This document shows, piece after piece, positions 6,310 to 46,799 of a DNA stretch of 64,000 nt. Location of the stretch: positions 1 to 64,000 of IMG/VR virus record IMGVR_UViG_3300009285_001653. One strand, given 5' to 3'. Positions within the stretch are counted from its first letter, which is position 1, and the number at the start of each line of letters is the position of its first letter. The notes under the pieces were generated by a model. The model made no database searches. It had not been told where the DNA came from and saw only the letters and a list, made by a program, of their open reading frames with translations. The translations under genes were made by a program, and so were the position numbers. The DNA comes from a virus.

Positions 6310-6852
6310 ATGATTAGTATCAACGGTAAAAGACTAGACTCTGTTACACCAGAACAGATTAAGAAGATCATTCTCGATAGTGCGATGGCGAATGGTAGAA
6401 AGTTATTCGTTGTAAGAATGAATGGAGAACCAATCTCTAGCAATCAGATCCCCGACCCGATACCGGACGGCACGACATTCTGGACATCATTCCCTGTCGT
6501 CAACGCGATTGTGTTAAATGTTGTACTCGCAAACCCACAAGAGTACAGACAGAAGAATAGTATTACTAGGACACTAGAGTTACCTAAAAGGATCCCTAGG
6601 ACTAGAGAACAGATCTTGGATATGCTTGGCAGGAAGTGTTGTAGATGTGGCTATGATGCTGATGTGCGCGCTTTACAAATAGATCACATAAACGGCGGTG
6701 GCCGTGGGGAGAGGAAAAAGCTCAGAGGCTATGATAGATATTATAAGCATATTTTAGCAAATCCAGCTGGGTATCAAATCCTCTGCGCGAACTGTAATTG
6801 TATCAAGATGTACGAAGAAGATGAGATCAGCCAACGTTATCAGGTGGAATAG
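6310..6852 (+). CDS. HNH endonuclease-like protein, 180 aa
   Basis: The C-terminal half carries an HNH-type fold: CxxC at about residues 110-113, the IDHINGGG motif with D125-H126, then LCANCN (C159 and C162) followed by lysine. These are the metal-binding and zinc-knuckle elements of phage HNH nucleases. The N-terminal 90 residues contain a compact alpha/beta segment of unknown role, so it may be a two-domain protein. It stands alone among small genes, as free-standing homing-type HNH genes often do. Confidence 0.75.
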   Translation: MISINGKRLDSVTPEQIKKIILDSAMANGRKLFVVRMNGEPISSNQIPDPIPDGTTFWTSFPVVNAIVLNVVLANPQEYRQKNSITRTLELPKRIPRTREQILDMLGRKCCRCGYDADVRALQIDHINGGGRGERKKLRGYDRYYKHILANPAGYQILCANCNCIKMYEEDEISQRYQVE

Positions 6853-7862: not shown

Positions 7863-8065
7863 TAGCAGACCAGCTCGAGGCCAATTATGACGCTGCGATA
7901 GTAACAACTGTAAGCAGTCATCTGGTCTGCTATGAGCCTTCTACCCGTAGGGTGCTGGTACGGGCGAGGTTCAAGTTATTCGGGTTAGCTAACCCAAACA
8001 ACAAAAGTCTAGTAGTGAGGAGGAAGCATGGCTGGTTGGAACACGAACGCGACTCTGAACGGTAA
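7859..8065 (+). CDS. Hypothetical protein, 68 aa, TTG start
   Basis: The TTG at 7859 overlaps the previous stop and has AGAAGG upstream. The product has a beta-rich centre and a basic end. The 3' end overlaps the Ubl gene by 38 bases in another frame, which weakens the call. Function is unknown. Confidence 0.4.
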   Translation: MIADQLEANYDAAIVTTVSSHLVCYEPSTRRVLVRARFKLFGLANPNNKSLVVRRKHGWLEHERDSER

Positions 8066-8264
8066 CGCGATTGAGCCGGGTGGCAACTTTCGTACAACCG
8101 TTACAGCAAAAGCAGCGCAGCTCGGGTACACAAACTTCCGAGTATTGCTCAATGGCTCTGAGTTAGATGTCGGCGGGGCACCAGAGCTGGTCAATGCCGG
8201 AGCGGTGATCGAAGTCCGGCCTTTCGATAAGGCTGGAAAGAAGGCTGGAAAGTCTAGCAGCTAG
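8028..8264 (+). CDS. Ubiquitin/ThiS-like beta-grasp protein (Ubl), 78 aa
   Basis: GTGAGGAGGAAGC precedes the ATG. The order strand (NATLNGNAIEP), helix (FRTTVTAKAAQLGY), strand (NFRVLLNGSEL), loop, final strand (GAVIEVRPF) fits the beta-grasp plan of ThiS, MoaD and ubiquitin-like proteins, and the length is right. The C-terminus is DKAGKKAGKSSS: there is no terminal Gly-Gly, so it would either be trimmed (perhaps after AG, by the JAMM protease at 10130) or conjugated unusually. It is followed by an E1-like and a JAMM gene, which is the main support for the call. Family assignment is by structure-order reasoning, not by search. Confidence 0.6.
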   Translation: MAGWNTNATLNGNAIEPGGNFRTTVTAKAAQLGYTNFRVLLNGSELDVGGAPELVNAGAVIEVRPFDKAGKKAGKSSS

Positions 8265-8277
8265 GACAAGGTACATA

Positions 8278-8298
8278 GGAGACGCTGCACCCGTCTCC
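8278..8298. other. Hairpin between Ubl and E1 genes
   Basis: GGAGACG (8278-8284) and CGTCTCC (8292-8298) form a perfect 7-bp stem with a 7-base loop. No T tract follows, so it is not a standard terminator. It may protect the Ubl mRNA 3' end or lower readthrough into the E1 gene, giving more Ubl than enzyme (inference). Confidence 0.5.
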
Positions 8299-8323
8299 AC
8301 TACCAACTCGAGGAGGAATTATT

Positions 8324-10108
8324 ATGGCTTTTATAGAAGTAGATCGGAGCAGAGTAGCTAAGTGGCCCGGAGAACCAGGTGGCTATGAGCATGATAGGTA
8401 TGGTCTACCTTTACCGGGCAGGTATATCTCCCTAGACGAGTGCTCTCAGACTGCGTCATATACTAGGATAGTTGGCGGGCCACTTGCCGGCAAGAGGGTG
8501 CTTACTGGCCGGTTATATGCAGCACGCGGGCCGAACACGCACGCGACATATAGCGTGTGTACGGATTGTGGTTGTATAAGAGGGACTCCACCGGGGTATT
8601 GTCATAGGACCCCCACAGAGATAGATGATGCTCATCTAGCTTGTCCTACCTGCAGTCACCATTTTTGTAGACACTGCTATATGCCATCAGAAAGACCCCT
8701 TTGTGCGGTATGTGAGCAACGACGCCATGAGTATAGGAGTTGGACTACACAAGGGCGTGACCAGAGACTAGCTAACATACAGAGGTTGGGAAGAAGTGCT
8801 TTTCCTACAATATCTCTATGGGAGAGAGACGGGGCTGCGTTACAAGAATCATTTCCCTTCGTATATGAGCCCAATCTTCTTATACTAAGAGGAGATCTGG
8901 AAGCGGATATTACAGAGGAGGCTCAAGCGCTGCTAAGAAGAGACCTGTGGTGTCACATTACAAATGGTGGAAGGAGTAGTAGGGTATACATCACGACTGA
9001 TATAGAAGGCACAGGTCTTTTTGAGCACTACCATGTAGGTTGTTGGGGTGATGTTCAACTTCCTGTGGGTGCTACTCCAGCACAAATAGCAGAAATAGCC
9101 CATGATGTGTTGACCGTAGTAAATGGAGCCTCGCCTGCACGAGAGCGTCCAATAGGACTACCTTATACCGTAGCTCACATACCACACGGGCCAACGAGAT
9201 CAACTCGTGGCTGGAATACAGAGAGGATACGTGTGCTAACCGAGCGAGAGAGACTACTGCAAGACATATTTAGTAGGCAGCAGGGGGTAGATCTGGCTGT
9301 ACCGGAATCTATAATGGTGGTGGGTTGCGGGGGGGTTGGGTGGTATGTCGCACTGCAAGCCGCTCTCATAGGAGTAAAGAGGATATTGTTAGTAGATTAT
9401 GATCATATAGATCTCACTAATATGAGTAGGCTACCTACGAGTATGGTGGATATGTTAAAAGCAACAGACCTGGCACACATGATAAATGGTAGTACATGGA
9501 GAGCTCTGGTAGGTACAGACACATATAACTGTGCTGTCTACGAGCGCCAAGTACAGGAGCTTTCGGAACATATAAACACGGGATTTTTTAGGACTAGCTT
9601 TGGGCCACATTATCCAATAGAGAACAGGCCTTTAGATGTTATATTAGATACTACAGATGACATAGCCACCCAGAGAAGTATCTACCGCATGGCTAGAAGG
9701 TGCGGGGCGAGGTATATTAGAGCGGGATACGATGGAGGCTGGCACGTTACTGTGAGTTCAAGAGAATCGCCGGAGTGGGAAGTAGAAGGAACAACTCCAG
9801 GTTATAGAGTAGCGGCGTGGGTTGGTGGAGCACAGTTCGCTGCTAGTATAGCTATTACGAAGATGTGCTATAAGCCTGAGTTGGAAATTAGCGCCGATAT
9901 TAGGCATATGCTAGTGCAGTTCCATCAGGAGGATTTAGTAGTAACTGAAGACATTTCTACCTGGGTGGAGGTACCGGAGGAGGAAGGAATACCAGTACTA
10001 GAGGTGGAGGAAGGAATACCTACAGTAGAAGAAATACCTGTAAACCGTATACCATTTCCGCCACCGCAAATGTGGACGGTGTATAGTGATACAGCATCTA
10101 CAGTTTAG
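8324..10108 (+). CDS. ThiF/E1-like activating enzyme with zinc cluster, 594 aa
   Basis: CGAGGAGGAATTATT precedes the ATG. Residues 79-130 hold four CxxC pairs (C79/C82, C107/C110, C115/C118, C127/C130), including CPTCSHHFCRHC, reminiscent of RING/IBR-type zinc folds. Residues about 175-290 contain FEHYHVGCWGDVQL (C240) followed by a long helix, which resembles the HPN...C region of E2 folds; this is tentative. Residues 329-515 are an E1/ThiF adenylation domain: nucleotide loop GCGGVG (334-339), LLVDYDHIDLTNMSR with acidic D358 and R369, then LDTTDD (441-446). The usual cysteine after the crossover loop is absent (nearest C460, C515). The C-terminal tail repeats EEGIP twice. It would activate the upstream Ubl. 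Confidence 0.8.
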   Translation: MAFIEVDRSRVAKWPGEPGGYEHDRYGLPLPGRYISLDECSQTASYTRIVGGPLAGKRVLTGRLYAARGPNTHATYSVCTDCGCIRGTPPGYCHRTPTEIDDAHLACPTCSHHFCRHCYMPSERPLCAVCEQRRHEYRSWTTQGRDQRLANIQRLGRSAFPTISLWERDGAALQESFPFVYEPNLLILRGDLEADITEEAQALLRRDLWCHITNGGRSSRVYITTDIEGTGLFEHYHVGCWGDVQLPVGATPAQIAEIAHDVLTVVNGASPARERPIGLPYTVAHIPHGPTRSTRGWNTERIRVLTERERLLQDIFSRQQGVDLAVPESIMVVGCGGVGWYVALQAALIGVKRILLVDYDHIDLTNMSRLPTSMVDMLKATDLAHMINGSTWRALVGTDTYNCAVYERQVQELSEHINTGFFRTSFGPHYPIENRPLDVILDTTDDIATQRSIYRMARRCGARYIRAGYDGGWHVTVSSRESPEWEVEGTTPGYRVAAWVGGAQFAASIAITKMCYKPELEISADIRHMLVQFHQEDLVVTEDISTWVEVPEEEGIPVLEVEEGIPTVEEIPVNRIPFPPPQMWTVYSDTASTV

Positions 10109-10129
10109 TAAGGAGGAGGAAAAGAGATA

Positions 10130-11050
10130 GTGTCAGGATATGACGATACTTTCGGTCATTATGCAGATCATAGCGAACCAGCACCATTTTTGCCGCAAGA
10201 CCAAGGCGGATGGACGACGGGGGATCAAGTACCTACTCACCATTCTTGTCCATATACGACGGGGACTATTTACTTAGCACCACTGGCTTATGCTAAGATT
10301 ACCGCTCTTATGGACAAGTTTAATAAAGAGTGGTTAGCATATATGCTAGGAAAGTGGGTAGATGAGAATGTCGTTGTAGACGACTTGTACATACCGGAAC
10401 AGGTATCGTCAGCAGCAACCGTGTCAAACGTGGAAGAATCTCCTCCCGAGGGGACTATTGGCGTAATGCACTCTCATGTACGGATGGGAGCGTTCTTTAG
10501 CGGAACTGATGACGAGTTCATCAATAGCAATCATAGGATAAGTATAGTAGTTAGTAGATCGCGGGGCAGCGAAGATTTGGTATTTAAGTCGAGCGTGAGG
10601 AAGCAGGTAGCTTGTGGCATAACAATGCTACTAGAAATGCCCGTAAGGATGGCTGTTGTTACGCCACAGATACGGGACTGGATAGAAGAGTGCTCACCAA
10701 GAGTTAAAGACTGGGTTTATAAAGCACCAGTCCAGAAAGCAAGTATTCTGAGTGTAGAGAAGAGGAGGATACCGTGGTGGGAGAAGAAGGCAGAGGTTAA
10801 TGATCCACTGTCTGCTCTACTAGAAAAAGTAGATGAGATGGCTTTGCTAACACCACAATTACTTACTTCATATAGTAATGCTTTTCCGCCCGGGGTAAGG
10901 GTGTTTGATGCTGTAAAAACAGTGGATAATAAGACACTACTAGAAGCGCTTACCTATATGGAGAGGTTCGGTCTTGACAAGCCGGGTCAGATACAGTATA
11001 ACAAGTATACAGTAGCATATAGAGAGATGTCAAAGAGGTTAAAGGAATGA
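10130..11050 (+). CDS. JAMM/MPN-domain metalloprotease, 306 aa
   Basis: The GTG at 10130 follows AAGGAGGAGGAAAAG. The zinc site is complete: E67 in KEWLAYMLG, H114 and H116 (MHSHVRMG), S124 and D127, matching E...HxH-x7-SxxD of Rpn11, AMSH and bacterial JAB proteases. Residues about 44-180 form the MPN domain; 180-306 is a helical extension of unknown fold. JAMM enzymes hydrolyse isopeptide bonds to ubiquitin-like proteins or trim their C-termini. Next to an E1-like and a Ubl gene it should process or remove the phage Ubl. An alternative role is removal of host conjugates, as in CBASS-type defence. Confidence 0.85.
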   Translation: MSGYDDTFGHYADHSEPAPFLPQDQGGWTTGDQVPTHHSCPYTTGTIYLAPLAYAKITALMDKFNKEWLAYMLGKWVDENVVVDDLYIPEQVSSAATVSNVEESPPEGTIGVMHSHVRMGAFFSGTDDEFINSNHRISIVVSRSRGSEDLVFKSSVRKQVACGITMLLEMPVRMAVVTPQIRDWIEECSPRVKDWVYKAPVQKASILSVEKRRIPWWEKKAEVNDPLSALLEKVDEMALLTPQLLTSYSNAFPPGVRVFDAVKTVDNKTLLEALTYMERFGLDKPGQIQYNKYTVAYREMSKRLKE

Positions 11051-18437: not shown

Positions 18438-18674
18438 ATGAGGGGAATTAGAGGCTGTAATTATCTTCTAAGATCAGAGTGTAAGAAGGGGCCTATGGAC
18501 ATAATGCCATATATCCATCAGCGTTATTGCTCGTTGGATAAGAAGCATGGGGGGAACCATCGCGTCACTATACAATGTGGAGGAGTACATAGAGCGTTAG
18601 GAGAAGGGTTCGAGGTACTAGATGAGCAGACAGAAGATCAGAAGGATAGGGAGGGCAAGGAGGATTTGCTATGA
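18438..18674 (+). CDS. Hypothetical protein, 78 aa
   Basis: AGGAGAGTAGAGT precedes the ATG. C7, C15, C31 with H26, and C47/H51, spaced like a small zinc site; acidic C-terminus. Ends overlapping the next start (ATGATG). Not recognised. Confidence 0.5.
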   Translation: MRGIRGCNYLLRSECKKGPMDIMPYIHQRYCSLDKKHGGNHRVTIQCGGVHRALGEGFEVLDEQTEDQKDREGKEDLL

Positions 18675-19474
18675 TGAACTATCCAGAAAGAGAGCTCTCG
18701 CCACAGGAGATCGAGAAGATTGTTGCGGAGACAGCCCAGATACGCATAGAGACCAGCTTAGCAGTAAGGAAGGTAGAGGCAGAGATAGCATTACTAACCG
18801 CCCAGAAATTAAGTGAGGAAACATCTGCGGCTAAAACAGCTATAGATGTACGATACGGGATTGCTGTGGCAGAAACGCAGGAACAAAATGTAAGGATGGG
18901 TCGGAAACAGGAACAAGAGATAGATGCGTCTGATCGCTACCATCATATCTACCGTTTCACGGAAGAGATCAGTCCACAAAGCACCCGTCTTTGTATGGAG
19001 AGGCTGGCTTACTGGGATAGAACATATCCAGGATGTGATATAGAGATTAGCTTCTCCTCTTCTGGCGGAGGAGTCATAGAAGGATTAGCACTATTTGACT
19101 ACATACTCTATATTAGGAGCCTGGGCCATAGGGTAACTACCTCTGCTTTGGGTGTTGCGGCCTCTATGGCTGGGATCTTGTTACAAGCAGGCGATGTACG
19201 AGTTATGCACAAGGAGGCCTGGGTAGCGATACATGAGATCAGCTTCGGAGCTACGGGGACCCCTGGACAAGTAGAAGACACAACAGAATGGATCAAGAAA
19301 ATACAAAATAGGACTGTCAAGATATTCGTAGACAGGTCGGTGGGAGCGAAGGAAGCGGGTACTGCCAAGACAGCCTTAACCGCTGCTTATGTAAAGAGTC
19401 ATTGGTCAAGGAAAGATTGGTGGTTGAGCTCGGACGAGTGTTTATCTCTTGGGATAGTTGATATAGTAAGGTAA
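18671..19474 (+). CDS. ClpP-like serine protease, 267 aa
   Basis: Residues 1-85 are a helical extension; 90-267 is a ClpP/crotonase-fold protease. The triad is complete: S165 in GVAASMAG, H188 in VAIHE, D249 in RKDWWLSSDE. The strand SFSSSGGGVIEGLALFDYI matches the NSPGG substrate-binding region. Head-maturation ClpP-like proteases normally sit beside portal and coat genes; this one lies in the metabolic region, so it may have another substrate, or act with a host Clp ATPase. The N-terminal helix is longer than in usual ClpP. Confidence 0.85.
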   Translation: MMNYPERELSPQEIEKIVAETAQIRIETSLAVRKVEAEIALLTAQKLSEETSAAKTAIDVRYGIAVAETQEQNVRMGRKQEQEIDASDRYHHIYRFTEEISPQSTRLCMERLAYWDRTYPGCDIEISFSSSGGGVIEGLALFDYILYIRSLGHRVTTSALGVAASMAGILLQAGDVRVMHKEAWVAIHEISFGATGTPGQVEDTTEWIKKIQNRTVKIFVDRSVGAKEAGTAKTALTAAYVKSHWSRKDWWLSSDECLSLGIVDIVR

Positions 19475-20446: not shown

Positions 20447-22732
20447 TTGGGAATAATAACTCCTAGATCGCTCGGCCTCAAACACGATTCCTGGCGTCCC
20501 GGTCAGTGGGAAACTATACAGCAGATCGAGCAGGCACAAGAACCGGTCATAATTATAGAAGCCCCTACAGGGTCAGGAAAGAGCGAGATCGCTCTTGGTA
20601 CTGCTAGACATAGCCTAGACCGAACTATGACTCTCACCCATACCAAGTCTCTGCAAGACCAATATATGAGTGAGGGAGGGGATCTTATAGTAAAGATGAT
20701 GGGCAGGGCCAACTATCCCTGTGTCAATCGAATAGGAGATGCTGAAGAAAGAGAGCTGGCAGAGTTACTGGGTGAGATAGAGTGTGGTTGTACGAGTAGG
20801 GATGACTGTCCCTATCAGCAAGCAAAAAAGAGGGCTATGGAACGCCCACTCGTGTCGCTTAACTATGCATACTGGTTGCCAGAAGCGTCATACGTTGGTG
20901 GGTTCAAGGGCGCGGATTATTTGTTCGCTGATGAGGGACACCTACTTGATAATGTTCTAGTGGACTTTGCTTCCCTATCCATTAGTAAAAGAATGTCTGC
21001 TATGATCGAGAAGTTGGGAGTGAACATGCCTCGTGACCTCGATAACATACAGAGGTGGATAGAGTACGGGGTAAAGGCTAGAGAGAAGGCGGCGGATGCG
21101 GTTAGCGAGACTAGCGGACATGCTCAGGAAGTATGGAAGAAGAGAGTTAAGTTCCTCACCAAGATAGCCCAGTTGGACCCAGGACATGAGAGATGGATAG
21201 TTGAAGAAGATGGTGGTGGGATGAGTATAGGGCCGGTTTGGGCACCTAGTATACAACAGACTATACTGACAAAGACTAAAAAACTTGTCATAATGAGTGC
21301 GACTATCTTGGATCACAAGTTCTTTGCTCAGTTGATGGGGTTAGATGGAAATGAGTACCGGTTCATAAAGCTGCCGTGGACGTTCCCTGTAGATAGTAGG
21401 CCAATTTACTACAGGCCAGTAGCAGAGGTGACTAGAGAGACACAGGCGGACGCTGCTCCATCACTAGCTGCCGCTTGTGATTATGTCCTAGAAAAGAGAA
21501 CTACAGATAAAGGTGTAATACATACTAGATCATTCACACTAGGCAACCTCGTCTATCCTCATATCAAGAACAAGGACAGGATATTGTTTCATACTAGGGG
21601 CGTGGATAGGGGAGAGATCATCAAGAGGTTCAAGGAAGATAGGACTAATTTGTGGTTGATGAGTCCTAGCGTAAGCCACGGAGAGGACTTCGCCCATGAT
21701 ATTGCCAGAGTTCAGATACTATTGAAGATGCCTCTACCTGATAGGAGCAATAGGAGAGTGAGAATTAGGTCGAAGCAGAGACCATACTGGTACTATTATG
21801 CAGCGGCTCAAGACCTAATACAGACATTGGGGCGGGTAACAAGAGATAGTCAAGACTATGGAGAATGTGTGGTGGTGGGGACAAAAGTTCTGACTGCTGA
21901 TCTAAGATGGCTAAGTGTCGAAGAGTTAGTGGTGGGGGATAAGGTACTATCCTTCGACGATCATACTGGAGGACGAGGCACAGCAAGACGGTGGCGTGTT
22001 GGAACTGTAGAACAAGCGGCTAAGATAGTACGTCCTTGCTACACAACTATATTAGAGGATGGTACAGAGTTGACAGCCAGTACATCTCATAAATGGCTGA
22101 CACGTGGCTATAACAATGTAACAGGCTGGAGAAGAGCGGATGAGTTACTTGGACAAGGTAGAGGAAACATACGTGTATTTAAGTACCTTAACGTATGGGA
22201 GGAAGGCCTTGACTATAAACACGGCTGGCTGGGAGGGTTTTTCGATGGAGAAGGCACTATAAGCCTAGACCAAGGCCTAAGAAATCCTAAAGTGATGGTC
22301 ATAAGTGCGGCGCAGCGCGTTTCTCCTACAGCAGATAGGGCACTTAACTATCTATCAGACACAAGGTTTACCTATACTACTAGGCTACTCGTACATGGAG
22401 GTTTGGGGAAACATAAGCTACTATCTATGAGAATCACTGGAGGATTTAGAGAAGGACTTAGGTTCTTAGGACAGTGTAGACCAGGCAGATTGATAGATAA
22501 GCTAGTAAGTAGTGGTTATGGTAACAGAATGTCTGCGTACAAAGCACTGAGAGTAAAAGATATAGTTGATGCCGGAGATCGAGAAGTGGTATCATTGAAG
22601 GTAGATGTCGGTACTTATGTAGCAGAGGGGTTTGGATCACATAACTCATGGATCTTTGATGGTAAGATGGAGATGTTCTTGGGTAGATATAGGCAGCTAA
22701 TGCCCAAAGAGATTTTGGAGGCTATGGTATGA
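20447..22732 (+). CDS. DinG/XPD-type DNA helicase with intein, 761 aa
   Basis: TTG start with AAGGTGG upstream. Walker A EAPTGSGKS (38-46), cysteines C92, C113, C115, C121 for a likely iron-sulfur cluster, DEGH box (162-165), and motif VI QTLGRVTR near residue 463: the DinG/XPD 5'-3' helicase plan. A 260-residue intein (residues 474-733) interrupts it right after motif VI; the mature helicase would be about 501 residues. It probably unwinds DNA or R-loops during phage replication and recombination. The upstream neighbour is RNA ligase. Confidence 0.85.
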   Translation: MGIITPRSLGLKHDSWRPGQWETIQQIEQAQEPVIIIEAPTGSGKSEIALGTARHSLDRTMTLTHTKSLQDQYMSEGGDLIVKMMGRANYPCVNRIGDAEERELAELLGEIECGCTSRDDCPYQQAKKRAMERPLVSLNYAYWLPEASYVGGFKGADYLFADEGHLLDNVLVDFASLSISKRMSAMIEKLGVNMPRDLDNIQRWIEYGVKAREKAADAVSETSGHAQEVWKKRVKFLTKIAQLDPGHERWIVEEDGGGMSIGPVWAPSIQQTILTKTKKLVIMSATILDHKFFAQLMGLDGNEYRFIKLPWTFPVDSRPIYYRPVAEVTRETQADAAPSLAAACDYVLEKRTTDKGVIHTRSFTLGNLVYPHIKNKDRILFHTRGVDRGEIIKRFKEDRTNLWLMSPSVSHGEDFAHDIARVQILLKMPLPDRSNRRVRIRSKQRPYWYYYAAAQDLIQTLGRVTRDSQDYGECVVVGTKVLTADLRWLSVEELVVGDKVLSFDDHTGGRGTARRWRVGTVEQAAKIVRPCYTTILEDGTELTASTSHKWLTRGYNNVTGWRRADELLGQGRGNIRVFKYLNVWEEGLDYKHGWLGGFFDGEGTISLDQGLRNPKVMVISAAQRVSPTADRALNYLSDTRFTYTTRLLVHGGLGKHKLLSMRITGGFREGLRFLGQCRPGRLIDKLVSSGYGNRMSAYKALRVKDIVDAGDREVVSLKVDVGTYVAEGFGSHNSWIFDGKMEMFLGRYRQLMPKEILEAMV
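21866..22645 (+). other. Intein with LAGLIDADG-type endonuclease motif, 260 aa
   Basis: Begins with Cys1 (CVVVGTKVLT), has a block B-like TASTSHKWLT (Thr and His), and ends GSHN followed by Ser+1 (SWIFDG), so all splicing residues are in place. WLGGFFDGEGTISL near the middle is a LAGLIDADG motif. A second motif is degenerate, so homing activity is uncertain. Insertion is next to helicase motif VI. Confidence 0.9.
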
Positions 22733-28234: not shown

Positions 28235-28544
28235 AGATGCTAGTTATGATTTCAAGGTAGAAGCTAGGAAAACACTATCACAACCGTCGCTTCTAGCAGC
28301 ATCATGGGAAGCCTATGAGTGGCACTGGGAAGGTATAGGTGTTCCAAAACCGTGGCGTAGACTAATGAATAAATGGTGTAATAGGTTTGGTCATAGAGCA
28401 GTAGTAGTAGACTGGGGAGAGGATCAAGCATTGTCTTTGTGGTGTAAGATCTGTGACCAAGAGAAGGATTTGATTACGCCTTTTACTATAAAAATACCTA
28501 CCTGGTCATCTCCAGATCAGGCAGTATACACCGGGAGGGTTTGA
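28224..28544 (+). CDS. Hypothetical protein, 106 aa
   Basis: GTG start overlapping the previous gene by 11 bases. Two cysteine pairs (WCNRFGH, LWCKICDQ) suggest a zinc site; several tryptophans. Ends in TGATG overlap with the methyltransferase. Not recognised. Confidence 0.5.
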   Translation: MGLKDASYDFKVEARKTLSQPSLLAASWEAYEWHWEGIGVPKPWRRLMNKWCNRFGHRAVVVDWGEDQALSLWCKICDQEKDLITPFTIKIPTWSSPDQAVYTGRV

Positions 28545-30325
28545 TGGAAGTTGAGCAGGTTTACGGACTATATGGTAAGAGCTGGAAAGGGCTAGTGGTT
28601 CCAGAGGCTATGTCCCATCCGGCAAAGTTCAGCCGCAAGCTAGTGTATTGGATTATTACTACTGGGCTGGAGCGCGGTTGGTGGGAACAGGGAGATTTGA
28701 TTCTGGATCCGTTTGGTGGTGTGGGACTAGGTGGGATAGCAGCAGCCGACTACTATCTGAACTGGCTAGGTGTGGAATTAGAACCGAAGTTCGTTAATCT
28801 AGCAGAGGAGAACTTTGCGCTGAATATGCAGAGATGGGAGAAGGATGGGTGTCCGCTGCCTGATATAGTACAAGGCGATTCTAGGAACTTAGTTGATATA
28901 GTACATGGTATAATTAGTGGTTCTATTACCAGTCCTCCGTTTATGACTAGTTCTCTCACCACAGATAAGAAGTTTATCGCAGCAGTAGAAAGAGATAAAA
29001 GGAACGGTTCTCGTCTACAGGGAGGTTTTGTTGGAGGTGAAGATTCTGGGTATGGTACGACACCTGGACAAGTAGGTGTAATGCCGGAGGGCTCCCTAGC
29101 TGCCATAACCTCTCCACCTTACGCTAACAGCATCCACACTGGCGAGCAAACAGACAAAGCCAGACAGAGGAAGGCAGAGAGGTTTGAGCGCGGAGAGTTT
29201 ACCACAACTCGTCCTGATATTTTTACATCGCAGAAGAACATAGGAGCGAGGGCGATGTATATTAGTGACTATGGCGAAGAAGAGGGACAAATTGGGGCGA
29301 TGAAGGAAGGTCGGCTTGCGACAGTAACTTCTCCACCGTGGGAAGCACAATCTGTTATGGCGGGGGATCAATTACGGCACCCCGGTTTTAGAGATAAGAC
29401 GCAGAATGTCCGAGGTTATAGAGGCGATAAGGACGTGTTGGAGTACCGTGATCCTGGCCCCATCGGATTTAGCAGCATAACCTCGCCCCCGTTTTCCCAA
29501 CCAGAGACAAGAGATCGTTATGCTGTACAAGACGGGTCTATTTCAGATGTCATGACGAGAAATGCGACAGTAGACAGACAGGGATCATCTATAGAAAATA
29601 TAGCTAGGTTGGCTGGTATCACTTCTCCGCCCTACGGTAACAGACAAGGAAATGAAGAGACCGCCGGTAGTGTCAAAGAGGGGATAAATGACACGTATGG
29701 AGTAAGTCCTGGGCAAATAGCGGGGTTGACAAGTCCGCCCTACGAAGGCCAGATTGTGAGAGAACGGTCAAGCCATTTGGAACTGGAACGCATGGAGAGA
29801 AAGGGTATTTCAGGAGCTTCTTACGGTATGCGTGGAAATAGGCTGCTGTTCGATTCCTATTCCAACCTGGGATCCGTCACATCACCACCTTACGAGAAAT
29901 CTCTCGAAGGTGGTAGTAGACACAGTACCGATAGTGGCATCAATAAGCGGTTCAAGGAGGAGGGCAGGAAACCTATAGAGGGCGGGTATAGTGAGGCTGC
30001 AAACAATCTAGGCAATCAGAGGGGCGAGACGTACTGGGAAGCAGTGGCACAAGTTTACCAGCAGATGTATGATCTTTTCCAGCCTGGTTCTCACGCCGCG
30101 ATTGTAGTCAAGAGCTTTGTCAGGAAGAAGAAGATTGTGGACTTGCCACAGATGACGCTTGACCTGCTAATGCATATTGGGTTTGAGCCTGTGAGCTGGA
30201 TTGAGACTATGTTAGTGAGTGAGGACGGGAAGAAGGGGTATAAAAGCTTCTTCCGAAGATTGGCCGAATCTAAGGGTAGTCCGAGGATTGATAACGAAGT
30301 CGTTTTGGTAGTAAAGAAACCATAG
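28544..30325 (+). CDS. DNA methyltransferase with seven TSPP motifs, 593 aa
   Basis: The start at 28544 overlaps the previous stop (TGATG), with GGGAGGG upstream. SAM-binding motif LDPFGGVGLGG near residues 53-64 and the catalytic SPP(F/Y/W) motif identify an N4-cytosine or N6-adenine methyltransferase. The TSPP motif occurs seven times (about residues 129, 189, 262, 313, 360, 396, 446), each in a degenerate unit with YG-x-x-PGQ and a glycine loop. The C-terminus (GETYWEAVAQVYQ ... HAAIVVKSFVRK) resumes the methylase fold. It may modify phage DNA against restriction. Confidence 0.85.
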   Translation: MEVEQVYGLYGKSWKGLVVPEAMSHPAKFSRKLVYWIITTGLERGWWEQGDLILDPFGGVGLGGIAAADYYLNWLGVELEPKFVNLAEENFALNMQRWEKDGCPLPDIVQGDSRNLVDIVHGIISGSITSPPFMTSSLTTDKKFIAAVERDKRNGSRLQGGFVGGEDSGYGTTPGQVGVMPEGSLAAITSPPYANSIHTGEQTDKARQRKAERFERGEFTTTRPDIFTSQKNIGARAMYISDYGEEEGQIGAMKEGRLATVTSPPWEAQSVMAGDQLRHPGFRDKTQNVRGYRGDKDVLEYRDPGPIGFSSITSPPFSQPETRDRYAVQDGSISDVMTRNATVDRQGSSIENIARLAGITSPPYGNRQGNEETAGSVKEGINDTYGVSPGQIAGLTSPPYEGQIVRERSSHLELERMERKGISGASYGMRGNRLLFDSYSNLGSVTSPPYEKSLEGGSRHSTDSGINKRFKEEGRKPIEGGYSEAANNLGNQRGETYWEAVAQVYQQMYDLFQPGSHAAIVVKSFVRKKKIVDLPQMTLDLLMHIGFEPVSWIETMLVSEDGKKGYKSFFRRLAESKGSPRIDNEVVLVVKKP

Positions 30326-30333
30326 GAGGAGAG

Positions 30334-30528
30334 ATGTTTTCAGCTAACGAACAGATTATCCTGGAGGAACTACGCCGAAGCGGCTCTGATTACGAGACAC
30401 GCATTGAACTAGTAATGAGGCTTGCTAAGGCAATAGATGAGTACTGTCCTAATGATGAAATGTGCAGGTGCTGGAAAGCTGGTTATGAGAAGGCGCTAGA
30501 AGCAGAGAGGGAGCCGTTAGGAATATGA
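30334..30528 (+). CDS. Hypothetical helical protein, 64 aa
   Basis: GGAGGAGAG precedes the ATG; overlaps the polymerase gene by 4 bases. Helical, with CPNDEMCRCW near residue 40. No function recognised; the position suggests a replication accessory. Confidence 0.5.
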   Translation: MFSANEQIILEELRRSGSDYETRIELVMRLAKAIDEYCPNDEMCRCWKAGYEKALEAEREPLGI

Positions 30529-32831
30529 GCCTTAACCTCATACCAGGTCTAGTAGACTGTAAAAACTGCGATCTATACCAGAACGGTTTTGTTGTGCCTG
30601 GGCGCGGACCTGTTCCCGCTCAGACAATGTTCGTAGGAGAGGCTCCTGGTCGCGAAGAGAACAATACTGGTGTACCATTTATCGGCGCAGCTGGTAAGTT
30701 GTTGACTAAGTTGATAGAGTTAGCAGGAATTGACCCAGCAGGCGCATATTTTACAAACGTTGTCAAGCATTGGCCTGGGGAAGGTAATCCTACTCCTAAG
30801 ATAAAGTACATGAGGGCCTGTGGTGCTTGGCTTAACACGGAGATAGAACAAGTTGATCCGTACATCATTGTAATGCTAGGCAAGACTGCTATATCTCGTC
30901 TAGCGCCGGACCTGAAACTCAAGCTGCATCATGGGCAGAAGTTTACAAGGGAGATGAACGGTAGAAACCGAACACTCATCCCGATGTACCATCCTGCTGC
31001 TATGTTACATCAACGAGCATTGAAACCAATTATAGAGTATGACTTTAGACAGCTATTGGAAGATAATCTCATTCCTCCACCAGTCAAATCAATCCCAGAA
31101 GAACCGCCATTTCAGACTGTTCCTATCGAACTACCAGGAGTAGATCAGCCCACCGTCCTAGCTATAGACCTAGAGACTACTGGCCTTGACCCAGAGACAG
31201 ATAACATTGTATGCGTGTCCTGGGCTTGGGAGAAGAATGAGGGCCACGTTACCTATTATGTTGCAGAGTTCATGGACTGGATAAAAGGGTGGAGAGGTCC
31301 AGTAGTCTTTCATAATGCTCAGTTTGATATGGCGTTCATGGCTAAGTACGGTGTGTATTTTCCTCCTGAGAAAATCTGGGATACGATGCTGAGTGGCTAT
31401 GTATTGGGAAAAGAGAGGTTGAGTCTCAAAGGCCGAGCGATGTTAGAGCTCGGATATGAGATGGAAACGTTTGAGGCGCTCGCGGGGGAAAAGCCAAAGG
31501 ATGCTAGTCTAATACCCCCAGAGGAACTCGTTCCGTATGCTGCTGCCGATGCTGTTGTAACAAGGATCTTCTACCAAAGAGATAGAACAGAAATAGCTAT
31601 GAATCATGCGGGCCCTATACTTGATATACAGCATCAACTTATACCTGTGTTGGACAATATGCGGCGAAGGGGCATATTGGTAGATCGGGAAAAGTTACAG
31701 GCCTTGAAGGTCGAGGCTACTAGGGAGAAGATAGACGCTACTGTTAAGGTGTGGGAGACAGTAGGGCATGATTTCAACATGGACTCTCTACCGCAACTAC
31801 GACACGTTTTGTTTGATGAGTTGGGACTAAGGCCACTAAAGAGGACAAAGAGTAGGGCGGCTTGGAGCACCGATAGCGAATCTCTAAAGATCCTTTCATC
31901 ACAACATCCCATAGTACCAGCTCTACTTGACTATCGAGAAATAGGCAAAATGCGAGGAACGTATATCGAGCCAGTAGAGAAGCATCTAGGGAAAGATGGT
32001 CGTGTTCATCCGACCTGGCTGCAAATAGGGACGAGGTCCAGCAGGCTCAGTTGTGAAAATCCCAACGCACAGAACCAGCCTTCTCGGAGCGAGGTATGGA
32101 AGAAGAAGATACGAGGGTTGTATGTGGCGGCTCCTAATAACATTCTGCTCTCTGCGGACTACTCGCAGGTTGAGCTCAGGGTCGCGGCCGCGTTAAGCAG
32201 TGATGTGAGGATGAGAGAGATTTACGAAAGTGGTGGTAATATACATCTCTATACACTACATAACATACTAAGGTTGCCTGGGGCTGATTCTCAGTCCCAT
32301 CCTGCTGAGTACAAATTAAGTAAGAACATCAACTTTGGCATGATTTACAGGTTGAGTGACAAGGGGCTACAAAGATACCTATGGACTATGGCAGGCATAC
32401 GTGTAAGTTTGGAAGAGTCCCACAAAATCAGAACACAATTCCTGAATGAGTTTCCGGGTCTTATGGCATGGGAAGATACTGTGGTCAAACAGGTTATGAA
32501 TTACGGTTGGACAGAGACACTTTTGCACCACAGGCGCTACTTCCCAGAACTTGACCCACAGGATCCAGAAGAGACGCTTAAGGCCGCTATAAACCACCCA
32601 GTACAAGGCACAGCTGGAGGAGACATAATGAGGACAGCTATGGTTAGATTAGGGCATCTTCCCCTCATCCTCAACATACACGACGAGTTGGTGTTTGAGC
32701 TGCCAGAAAGTGAGGTAGGCGAGATAAAAAACGAGGTTTGTGGTATAATGATAGAGACAGCAGAGAGTCTGCTAGGCTTCCCGGTCGAGGTTGATGTGGC
32801 AGTTGGAAAGAATTGGGGAGAGCTGGATTAA
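30525..32831 (+). CDS. Uracil-DNA glycosylase fused to family A DNA polymerase, 768 aa
   Basis: Residues 1-185: family 4/5-type uracil-DNA glycosylase (GEAPGREEN 38-46; YHPAAM 155-160). Cluster ligands C12, C15 and C99 are present, but the expected fourth Cys is H82 in VKHWPG. Residues 210-350: 3'-5' exonuclease (DLETTG D214/E216, HNAQFD D268, YAAADA D342). Residues 370-768: polymerase A (SADYSQVELR D545, KNINFGMIYR 600-609, NIHDELVFE D720). All key residues are present, except Tyr-Gly of motif B is Tyr-Arg. It could remove uracil while copying the genome. Confidence 0.93.
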   Translation: MSLNLIPGLVDCKNCDLYQNGFVVPGRGPVPAQTMFVGEAPGREENNTGVPFIGAAGKLLTKLIELAGIDPAGAYFTNVVKHWPGEGNPTPKIKYMRACGAWLNTEIEQVDPYIIVMLGKTAISRLAPDLKLKLHHGQKFTREMNGRNRTLIPMYHPAAMLHQRALKPIIEYDFRQLLEDNLIPPPVKSIPEEPPFQTVPIELPGVDQPTVLAIDLETTGLDPETDNIVCVSWAWEKNEGHVTYYVAEFMDWIKGWRGPVVFHNAQFDMAFMAKYGVYFPPEKIWDTMLSGYVLGKERLSLKGRAMLELGYEMETFEALAGEKPKDASLIPPEELVPYAAADAVVTRIFYQRDRTEIAMNHAGPILDIQHQLIPVLDNMRRRGILVDREKLQALKVEATREKIDATVKVWETVGHDFNMDSLPQLRHVLFDELGLRPLKRTKSRAAWSTDSESLKILSSQHPIVPALLDYREIGKMRGTYIEPVEKHLGKDGRVHPTWLQIGTRSSRLSCENPNAQNQPSRSEVWKKKIRGLYVAAPNNILLSADYSQVELRVAAALSSDVRMREIYESGGNIHLYTLHNILRLPGADSQSHPAEYKLSKNINFGMIYRLSDKGLQRYLWTMAGIRVSLEESHKIRTQFLNEFPGLMAWEDTVVKQVMNYGWTETLLHHRRYFPELDPQDPEETLKAAINHPVQGTAGGDIMRTAMVRLGHLPLILNIHDELVFELPESEVGEIKNEVCGIMIETAESLLGFPVEVDVAVGKNWGELD

Positions 32832-44119: not shown

Positions 44120-44521
44120 TTACTTCTCCTTACTTATTGGGTTTGATTGTATATGGAACACTGTATGCCCCACAGCGTTTCTCCGTTGTTTATCAACTAT
44201 GGTATGTATTGTATCCATAGGACGTGGTTTGGGGTTGCGAGGTCCGTTGGGCAAGAACGGGCGCTCTGCTCTCTTCATAGCCATCTCCTTTAGCTCTTGT
44301 CGAAAATACTGCCCTCCACCAATTACGACAATCGGCCTATCTGCGTCATTATACACGTAGAGGTCTGGCTTCGTATCCTGGAGGCGCTTATCTGCGTCCT
44401 TAGCCAATTCTGCATCCCTTTTCGCTTTCGTCGCTAGAGCCATGTTGCGTTTAATACGCATCTCGGCCCAACGCTTCAAATCATCCATAGTACGAATAGG
44501 AACGTAAAGTTTAGTTGCCAT
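44120..44521 (-). CDS. Hypothetical protein, 133 aa
   Basis: The start at 44521 (MATKLYVP) is chosen because AGAGGAAC precedes it; an in-frame ATG at 44560 extends into the upstream gene. Helical, charged N-terminal two thirds, basic C-terminus. Overlaps the fusion gene by 11 bases. Not recognised. Confidence 0.5.
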   Translation of the reverse strand: MATKLYVPIRTMDDLKRWAEMRIKRNMALATKAKRDAELAKDADKRLQDTKPDLYVYNDADRPIVVIGGGQYFRQELKEMAMKRAERPFLPNGPRNPKPRPMDTIHTIVDKQRRNAVGHTVFHIQSNPISKEK

Positions 44522-46799
44522 AGTTCCTCTGTAGGTGTAAGATAGGACGTTGGCGATCACTTAGCCCCAACACTCTAGCCGCCCAACCCTTCCTTCTAAA
44601 GGAAACTATCCAGTCTTCTGTAGTAGTTGTGCTACCATACTGTCCCACAGTAGGAGGCTCGAAATACACTTCCTCCGCCTGGTGCTTATCTATCAGTTCC
44701 CATAGATGCTCTGGATGCTTGAGGTGCATCACTACGGAAAGGGCGAAGACTATATCAACGTTACCAAACAGCGCCTTAGTTGTTGCGTCAGGAGTATCTA
44801 TATCAATGGCAAGAAACCGTCCAAGCTGTACTAATTCTCTAGCTGCTCGAATTATCGCTTCGTCTTTATCTATACCTATTGCAGAAAGCGCTCCTTCTTC
44901 TAACGCCTTCCTCACAAACCACCCGGCATTACACCCTATATCCAAAACCTTCTTGTCTCTGACACTAGGCTTCATAATGTCCCAGCGCACCTGATTGTCG
45001 CGCTCAAACTCCATACCCAGTCCCATATCAGCATAGCTTTTTACAGAACCAGTGCTAGAGCTTAACGCCAAGTCCTTGCGTACATCGTCTTCTGGTATGA
45101 GCTCTTGAAGCAAGATACGAAGACCTGTAGGAGCTGAGTCGGGAGCTATCTTAGTCTCTGTGCTATCAGCAGTCATCCAATAGCCGTCCTTGTCTTCAAT
45201 CGCCCAACCATAATCCACTAGCGACGCCTTACCATAGCCATCTACCACCACATTCTCGAACTTAATATCTCTATGTGCTATATTATGTTGGTGAAGGTAG
45301 TCAACAATCTTGACAACCTGGTTATAAATGTCCCAACGAGTTTCGAGAGGCAGGTTCATGTCTACAGGCTCTCCTCTATACTCTTGGACTAAACAAGTTC
45401 TGCCAAACTCATTCCCAAAGTGTGCAATAACCTTTGGTATGCCAGGATGATCTAACTTATCCATGATAGCAATACGGTCATCGAATCTCTTTCCACCATG
45501 ACCGCCATCTATGCTAATTACTACATCCTGTTCCTCATACCGCGCCTTATACACACTGGACGAAGTATTGCCGCTAAGCTTCTCACCAAACTCTACACCT
45601 TGACCACTAATTGTAGCTGGGGCAGGTGTCTCAAGCTCTGACTTTACCCTTGCCAGAAACGGCTGCCACAGTTCAGCGTACAGATGATCCCAATCGTAGT
45701 TCTTTGCAAACGTACTAACTATTCTACGCCACGGGTAGCCATCGCAGGTTCCAGCATGACAATCACAAGGCTTACTTAGCTGGTCATAGGCTTTAATCAT
45801 AGCCTCGGTAAGTTTATCAGGATCCACGTCCCACTGTGCCGCATATCCTACGCCAATGTACTTCTTACCAGGCACCAAAATCCTCATATCTTCTTGCGTA
45901 AGCTCTGGCATTGAGGTACAATCTGTGGCTATCACGGGTACTCCGCAAGCCTGAGCTTCTAGTACCGGTATACCAAATCCCTCTCCCTGAGTCGGTAGTA
46001 CAAAGCAGTCAAAGCTGTTGTACATAGCTCTCATATTAGCTTCGTCATAGCCCAAAAAGAGCGGATAAGGGTCGCTAAACATATACGCGTCCTTGTCCAA
46101 ACCTATTACCTCGGCTATTCGGTTGAGGTCGAAATGAGGGTCGCTAGTAGCAGTAGAAGTAGTATGCAGATAAAGTAGGGTGTTTGGTCGTTCATCACGC
46201 ACTGTCTTGTACGCTTCTAGCAGTCTATCAAACCCTTTTCTACTAGGCCAGTAGGCATTAAGCCCCACTATGCCGTACACAAACACGTCTTTACCTATTC
46301 CAAATGCTTCCCGCCATGCCTTTCGACCACCATCGTCCTGGTAGTAGTTCTTACTAATGCCGATGGGGATAAGCTCATTTTCTACGCCCGCCTCATCCAG
46401 TTGTTTCTTACCATGCTGGCTCATTGCGAGAACTTTCCATGTATACACTAATCTGTCTTTGTAGACATAGGAGAGTGGCTCATGGTCAATCGGCACCCAC
46501 GCAACCCACTTGAAACTCTCGCCGCCAAACCCGTCCGTATGCCACAAGTCCCATAAACTCATCACAAAATCAGGCTTCCAGAAGTCTATATGAGCAAGGA
46601 TGACATCGGCTTGGGATATGAACTGGCCTTCGGGAAAAACTGGTATCCCCTCCCAGTCCGTCTGTCCACCTTTGAGACCGAACACCGCGGCAATCGCCAC
46701 CTCGTGTCCGTCCTTTTTTAAGCTACGCGCAAGTCTGGCTGTTACAGTGCCATAACCGCTAGCGCACCACGGCGCTACACTAACTAACATGATCCGCAT
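44511..46799 (-). CDS. Glycosyltransferase-kinase-methyltransferase fusion, 762 aa
   Basis: Three domains in one frame. Residues 1-390: GT4-type glycosyltransferase (GYGTVTARLA near 15; EGFGIPVLE, E273/E281, then ACGVPVIATDCTSMPEL). Residues about 398-570: protein-kinase fold with HRDIKFEN (H509, D511, K513, N516) and DYG (529-531); the beta-3 lysine position is Ser in VVISID, so ATP use is uncertain. Residues 595-762: class I SAM methyltransferase (VLDIGCNAG 618-626, GIDKD 642-646). It lies in the virion operon and may glycosylate and cap a virion or host surface polymer. Confidence 0.85.
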   Translation of the reverse strand: MRIMLVSVAPWCASGYGTVTARLARSLKKDGHEVAIAAVFGLKGGQTDWEGIPVFPEGQFISQADVILAHIDFWKPDFVMSLWDLWHTDGFGGESFKWVAWVPIDHEPLSYVYKDRLVYTWKVLAMSQHGKKQLDEAGVENELIPIGISKNYYQDDGGRKAWREAFGIGKDVFVYGIVGLNAYWPSRKGFDRLLEAYKTVRDERPNTLLYLHTTSTATSDPHFDLNRIAEVIGLDKDAYMFSDPYPLFLGYDEANMRAMYNSFDCFVLPTQGEGFGIPVLEAQACGVPVIATDCTSMPELTQEDMRILVPGKKYIGVGYAAQWDVDPDKLTEAMIKAYDQLSKPCDCHAGTCDGYPWRRIVSTFAKNYDWDHLYAELWQPFLARVKSELETPAPATISGQGVEFGEKLSGNTSSSVYKARYEEQDVVISIDGGHGGKRFDDRIAIMDKLDHPGIPKVIAHFGNEFGRTCLVQEYRGEPVDMNLPLETRWDIYNQVVKIVDYLHQHNIAHRDIKFENVVVDGYGKASLVDYGWAIEDKDGYWMTADSTETKIAPDSAPTGLRILLQELIPEDDVRKDLALSSSTGSVKSYADMGLGMEFERDNQVRWDIMKPSVRDKKVLDIGCNAGWFVRKALEEGALSAIGIDKDEAIIRAARELVQLGRFLAIDIDTPDATTKALFGNVDIVFALSVVMHLKHPEHLWELIDKHQAEEVYFEPPTVGQYGSTTTTEDWIVSFRRKGWAARVLGLSDRQRPILHLQRNYGN

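Follow-up and report, generated by a model that had tools for sequence, protein, structure and literature searches.

A tailed-phage cassette predicted to encode a ubiquitin-like modifier, a RING-like/E2-like/E1 fusion protein, and a JAMM isopeptidase

The cassette at 8028-11050

The DNA analyzed here, referred to as the window, comprises the first 64,000 nucleotides of the virus record IMGVR_UViG_3300009285_001653 (64,042 bases), which carries tailed-phage genes for a capsid protein, a terminase-like protein, and a uracil-DNA glycosylase fused to a family A DNA polymerase (UDG-PolA). At 8028-11050, three closely packed genes on the plus strand encode a 78-amino acid (aa) ubiquitin-like modifier (Ubl) with a predicted beta-grasp fold (8028-8264), a 594-aa protein that combines RING-like, E2-like, and E1 domains (8324-10108), and a predicted JAMM/JAB isopeptidase of 306 aa with a GTG start (10130-11050). 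The genes are separated by 59 and 21 bp, and a strong Shine-Dalgarno sequence precedes every start (GAGGAGG for the Ubl and E1-like genes and AAGGAGG for the JAMM gene). An earlier note on this DNA had described three genes in the interval, and all of the corresponding open reading frames (ORFs) were found there.

The 78-aa protein gave no match in Pfam, PHROG, or NCBIfam. A Ubl profile built from its relatives recovered it at 5e-16 among all frames of the window, and the AlphaFold2 (AF2) model, calculated from a 20-sequence alignment, shows the beta-beta-alpha-beta-beta-beta order of a beta-grasp with a predicted local distance difference test (pLDDT) score of 77. Foldseek searches with this model returned ThiS (probability 0.99) and SUMO (0.97) as the top matches, with TM ~0.53 and E ~0.03; although these statistics are modest, the fold predicted by the model is clear. 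The earlier note had set this fold beforehand as a refutation test, and a beta-grasp is what both methods returned. The closest known families in profile comparisons are ThiS (1.5e-4) and SAMP2 (0.002). Judged from its tail, the mature Ubl would end at Gly70 (...RPFDKAG) or Gly74, which are followed by KKAGKSSS and KSSS, respectively, the window protein thus having KAG plus 8 residues. The two KAG sites arise from a 12-nt tandem duplication read from the sequence (aaggctggaaag, present twice at 8229-8252 on the plus strand), which codes for KAGK-KAGK. Ubls from the group of relatives that includes the window (the window clade, described below) end in ...YEVAG or ...YDVAG, some with 1-2 more residues, and the tails in other families are VGG, TGG, TSG, and similar. 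A second Ubl domain had seemed possible in the upstream HNH gene (6310-6852) from an N-terminal likeness seen by eye; this candidate was rejected with a profile E value of 1.9.

The 306-aa protein matched PF14464 (Prok-JAB; E = 2.5e-7) and the clade JAB profile (2e-29). Alignment of seven sequences showed that E67 (at 10328) and the downstream motif H114-S-H116-x7-S124-xx-D127 (10469-10510) are invariant, in agreement with the complete E...HxH-x7-SxxD site previously ascribed to this protein.

E1, E2-like, and RING-like domains of the 594-aa protein

The fusion protein was analyzed with Pfam, clade profiles, and a C3HC4 regular expression. Its E1/ThiF adenylation domain (residues ~329-545; 9308-9958) is matched by PF00899 (ThiF) over residues 329-469 (E = 1.7e-14), contains the GxGGxG nucleotide motif, is recovered by the clade E1 profile at 7e-20, and resembles UBA5 (7e-6). 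The core of the domain was modeled by AF2 with pLDDT values of 75-86. The Pfam and clade profile matches bear out the ThiF/E1 adenylation protein proposed in the earlier note. At the column placed as the E1 catalytic Cys, 21 of 26 representatives carry Cys; Gly replaces it in the window and in the loci labeled L041, L066, L103, and L119, a substitution found only in the window clade.

As the note further stated, the cassette has no gene dedicated to an E2 or an E3; this is correct to the letter but misleads, because the E1 gene itself includes both as predicted domains, which is why no gene of either kind is visible. The absence of these components from the cassette is not supported: the 594-aa protein has an E2-like domain with an HxH...CxG motif and an N-terminal RING-like zinc domain. 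The E2-like domain (residues ~160-295; 8801-9208) was located with the clade E2 profile, for which it is the best match among 714 window frames (E = 1e-4), and is ~30-36% identical to its relatives at aligned positions. Its candidate active site, HYHVG-C240-WG (C240 codon at 9041-9043), is of a short-loop type that is kept in the clade (HYHVGCWGD in the window and HYHTGCWGD in L144, where an E1 gene adjoins). The corresponding proteins of ten other families share an invariant HPH...CxG, and a profile of these HPH-type proteins gave three matches in the PDB, all of them E2 ubiquitin-conjugating enzymes (best E = 0.02). The protein occupying the E2 position in L065 is a member of Prok-E2_D (2.3e-6, above the cut-off). 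Overall, an H...CxG motif is found at the same cassette position in most of ~30 representative phage loci.

Residues 79-130 (8558-8713), which include TCSHHFCRHC...PLCAVC, fit the C3HC4 spacing exactly (C-x2-C-x27-C-x1-H-x2-C-x2-C-x8-C-x2-C) and constitute the sole match to the C3HC4 expression in 561,134 aa of ORFs. The pattern never arose by chance in 20,000 shuffles of the whole protein, and when the Cys-rich segment was shuffled 20,000 times, it arose in 3. Database matches of the region are weak, with E = 0.003 for Pfam IBR_1 and, in phmmer searches of the PDB, two matches only, both to the NOT4/CNOT4 RING (E = 0.12 and 0.2). From its Cys/His spacing, the N-terminal zinc domain is probably the RING-type E3 part of the protein. 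The E2-like proteins of L103 (4974-5744) and L141 (7528-7998) extend at the C terminus into a Cys-rich segment that may be another zinc E3-like module. The AF2 model of the full fusion, for which the E2s of relatives were trimmed to their cores in the folding alignment, had a mean pLDDT of 47 and did not enter into the E2 and RING assignments.

Conservation of the cassette in phages

Direct searches of viral, phage, and genome collections with the 594-aa protein yielded no relatives; these were therefore reached through the JAB motif. A search with the JAB protein led to one distant viral locus, L002, in which the gene order is Ubl, a 546-aa protein, JAB, and E1, and from which L003-L005 were found. 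The E1 of L002 in turn led to 77 phage records, nearly all from crAss-like Bacteroides phages and Flavobacterium phages. In the records read, the block has the order Ubl-like, putative E2, JAB, and ThiF, and the annotations of its genes read thiamine biosynthesis, metalloprotease, or hypothetical. The block lies between primase and uracil-DNA glycosylase genes in crAss001, cr128_1, bajarodcaudo virus 1, and Dulem virus 41; in FpV4, both of these genes are on one side of it. The Ubl-like protein of the crAss phages has an invariant S-G in a K-x-S-G-like tail, followed by a C-terminal extension, and a pairwise profile P value of 0.002, by which it may be a Ubl, an assignment weaker than that for the window protein. 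Cultured phages with the block are crAss001 (L007; 2232-7454), DAC15 (L011), and FpV4 (L008).

A degenerate DNA pattern for HSHxxMGAF[F/W]SGTD was then used to scan for JAB genes. It occurs in at least 120 viral contigs, compared to five matches among genome contigs of bacteria and archaea totaling 257 billion bases, and one of those five is the same contig (27,887 bases) as the viral locus L066. Among the matches listed, a same-strand E1 gene lies within 2.5 kb of the JAB gene in all 41 viral loci that have at least 2.5 kb on both sides, and E1 was absent from the 447 kb lying more than 2.5 kb from JAB across the loci listed. Many of these loci have, upstream, a short ORF for a Ubl-like protein whose tail contains Gly, and a Ubl-like ORF is nearby in most complete loci. 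This linkage bears on an alternative explanation, counter-defense, in which the phage enzymes would mimic or sabotage Bil or CBASS conjugation in the host, with the JAMM enzyme stripping off conjugates of host Ubl or of cGAS while the writer caps them or competes with them. Host Bil and CBASS Cap2/Cap3 conjugation restricts phages, according to PMC12660748 (citing Hor 2024) and PMC10097602, and a deconjugase-only role has been proposed for Borg JAMMs (PMC12660748). The phages, however, conserve a full writer with its own modifier and not a lone protease (E1 in 41 of the 41 listed JAB loci), and the cassettes of relatives sit amid replication genes, so counter-defense, which the earlier note had raised as one possible role of the JAMM enzyme, appears unlikely.

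A narrower pattern defined the window clade (L041, L066, L081, L090, L119, and L132-L137). Its complete loci contain Ubl, E2-like, E1, and JAB as separate genes, in that order, with a sliding clamp-like protein encoded two genes upstream (recognized by eye and without Pfam support). A scan with a Ubl motif returned eight stretches, seven being window-clade loci with the cassette and the eighth a Ubl that ends a short contig. With an E2 motif, HYHx[G/D/..]CWG, five stretches were obtained, and three of these contain an E2-like gene with E1 and JAB genes after it, in records that also carry a Ubl. Three independent seeds (JAB, Ubl, and E2) therefore converge on the same cassette, whose modules occur in phages in a conserved linkage and with conserved active-site residues. 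The earlier note had made adjacency of E1 relatives to Ubl in other genomes a condition of its reading, and these E1 genes do adjoin Ubl and JAB genes elsewhere. The three-gene phage cassette that it reported is present, and represents a single local case of fusion within a four-gene cassette found widely in phages, cultured crAss-like phages among them.

Elsewhere in the window, a ClpP-like protease (18671-19474; PF00574, 3.7e-19) is encoded within the early region and apart from the structural genes. Degradation by this ClpP was considered and rejected: ClpP occurs in one of eight records from relatives and therefore does not belong to the system. The UDG-PolA gene, a family A DNA polymerase with an N-terminal uracil-DNA glycosylase, is at 30525-32831. 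Three further ORFs were interpreted by eye, namely a DinG-like helicase whose C-terminal third resembles an intein with a homing-endonuclease region (20447-22732), an ORF that resembles a DNA methyltransferase and contains numerous internal TSPP repeats (28541-30325), and a single ORF with an apparent fusion of glycosyltransferase, protein kinase-like, and methyltransferase regions (44511-46799).

Proposed function and comparison with known systems

The cassette is probably a self-contained, reversible Ubl-conjugation system of a tailed phage, and the beta-grasp Ubl, together with E1 relatives that adjoin Ubl and JAB elsewhere, supports the conjugation reading put forward in the earlier note. 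In the proposed sequence of steps, the JAMM enzyme would trim the Ubl precursor to expose ...KAG, and the E1 domain would adenylate the exposed glycine. Because the E1 Cys is replaced by Gly in the window clade and the domains are fused in the window, Ubl-AMP would probably pass directly to Cys240 in the E2-like portion of the fusion protein. The RING-like domain may then promote discharge of the Ubl onto substrate lysines, and the JAMM enzyme may also remove the tag from substrates. Genes neighboring the cassette in relatives encode replication and recombination functions (the clamp-like protein, primase, a Sak4-type ATPase of the AAA_24 family, and uracil-DNA glycosylase); for that reason, the substrates to consider first, though speculatively, are proteins of phage replication or host factors that encounter them. 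SUMO modification of PCNA offers an analogy for tagging of the replication machinery. A more specific proposal is less likely than not: that a phage has joined E3 (RING), E2, and a Cys-less E1 in one polypeptide acting by cis transfer, and that its four-gene ancestor, an unrecognized system widespread in phages and present in crAss-like ones, modifies the replication/recombination machinery.

Several observations weigh against the interpretation as a conjugation system. The window cassette itself is flanked by HNH and hypothetical genes and not by clamp or primase genes, and the AAA_24 and UDG-PolA genes of the window are ~15-20 kb downstream. The RING assignment depends on spacing and weak matches, no other relative has a RING-like domain at that position, and just one example of the RING-E2-E1 fusion was found. 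For the window-clade E2, neither Pfam nor the PDB gave a direct match, and AF2 confidence is low in the E2 region, where the order of secondary structure elements fits the UBC (E2) fold. The window-clade and HPH-type E2 profiles are weakly linked (hhalign P = 0.002, probability 13%), so the UBC fold of residues ~160-295 is a prediction. The missing direct matches and the low model confidence would suit an arrangement in which the central region is not an E2 and the cassette provides only E1, Ubl, and a processing protease for MccB-type peptide adenylation. This is highly improbable given the retention of H...CxG at one cassette position in most representative loci, the exclusively E2 matches of the HPH-type profile in the PDB, and the Prok-E2_D protein of L065. 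The Cys-less E1 also resembles some sulfur-carrier activators. Together with the proximity of the Ubl profile to ThiS and SAMP2, and with known ThiS-like/JAB/E1 clusters for sulfur assimilation (PMC1779556), this would be compatible with a ThiS/ThiF/JAB-like small-molecule pathway in which the Ubl becomes a thiocarboxylate for thiolation of tRNA or a metabolite. We give that pathway very little weight: the E2-like active site is conserved and a RING-like domain is present, a search of the record found no rhodanese, and no sulfur or thiamine genes were noticed in the loci read.

Bacteria are known to use Ubl conjugation chiefly as an anti-phage defense. A complete phage-encoded writer and eraser would reverse this picture, and the question becomes what phages tag. 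The JAB signature is common in viral contigs and near-absent from cellular genomes, and the cultured carriers crAss001, DAC15, and FpV4 make the cassette open to laboratory study. Bacterial Ubl-E2-E1-JAB operons and E2-E1 fusions are already known (PMC1779556, PMC10097602, and PMC11354881). In the open-license literature searched, no report of a phage-encoded Ubl-conjugation system was found, and the open-license papers examined on crAss-like and jumbo phages contained no mention of one.

The bacterial Bil operon, BilABCD, has the same four classes (Ubl, E2, JAB, and E1) in one operon, with a JAMM enzyme that processes the Ubl. BilD consists of an inactive and an active adenylation domain and a Cys domain (PMC11354881), whereas the phage cassette has one ThiF domain without the pseudodimer, Cys domain, or catalytic Cys, a RING-like-E2-E1 fusion, and a single-domain Ubl. 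Sharing of the Ubl-E2-E1-JAB set with BilABCD (PMC11354881) could point to superinfection exclusion, by Bil-like tagging of the structural proteins of competing phages. That role is improbable, since in many families the cassette adjoins replication genes of the phage itself and its single-domain E1 departs from the architecture of BilD. In CBASS Cap2/Cap3 and 6A-MBL E2-E1(-JAB) proteins, the E2 is likewise N-terminal to the E1 in one protein and a JAB domain is present, and PADLOC E1-E2 models match the fusion at 2.7e-10 over the ThiF core only. The phage cassette differs in its dedicated Ubl gene, N-terminal RING-like domain, and Cys-less E1, and a search of the record gave no match to the SMODS nucleotidyltransferase (CD-NTase) of type II CBASS. 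Similarity to BubCD of the Citrobacter Bub system is confined to 50 residues of the ThiF core (E = 5e-4), and no membership is claimed. PRTRC_A weakly matches the JAMM motif (0.0028), far below the family cut-off, and no other PRTRC gene was seen. The lambda and T1 tail proteins TAPI and TAPK (PMC1779556) likewise combine Ubl and JAB peptidase components in phages; they are encoded by tail-assembly genes and have no accompanying E1 or E2, whereas here a writer and an eraser lie outside the structural region. A RING-E2-E1 fusion would provide a minimal, all-in-one ligase informative on the origin of E1-E2-E3 cascades. PMC5654768 reports a prokaryotic, eukaryotic-like set of E1, E2, and small-RING E3 in an uncultured archaeon, where the components are separate proteins, in contrast to the one fused protein of the phage.

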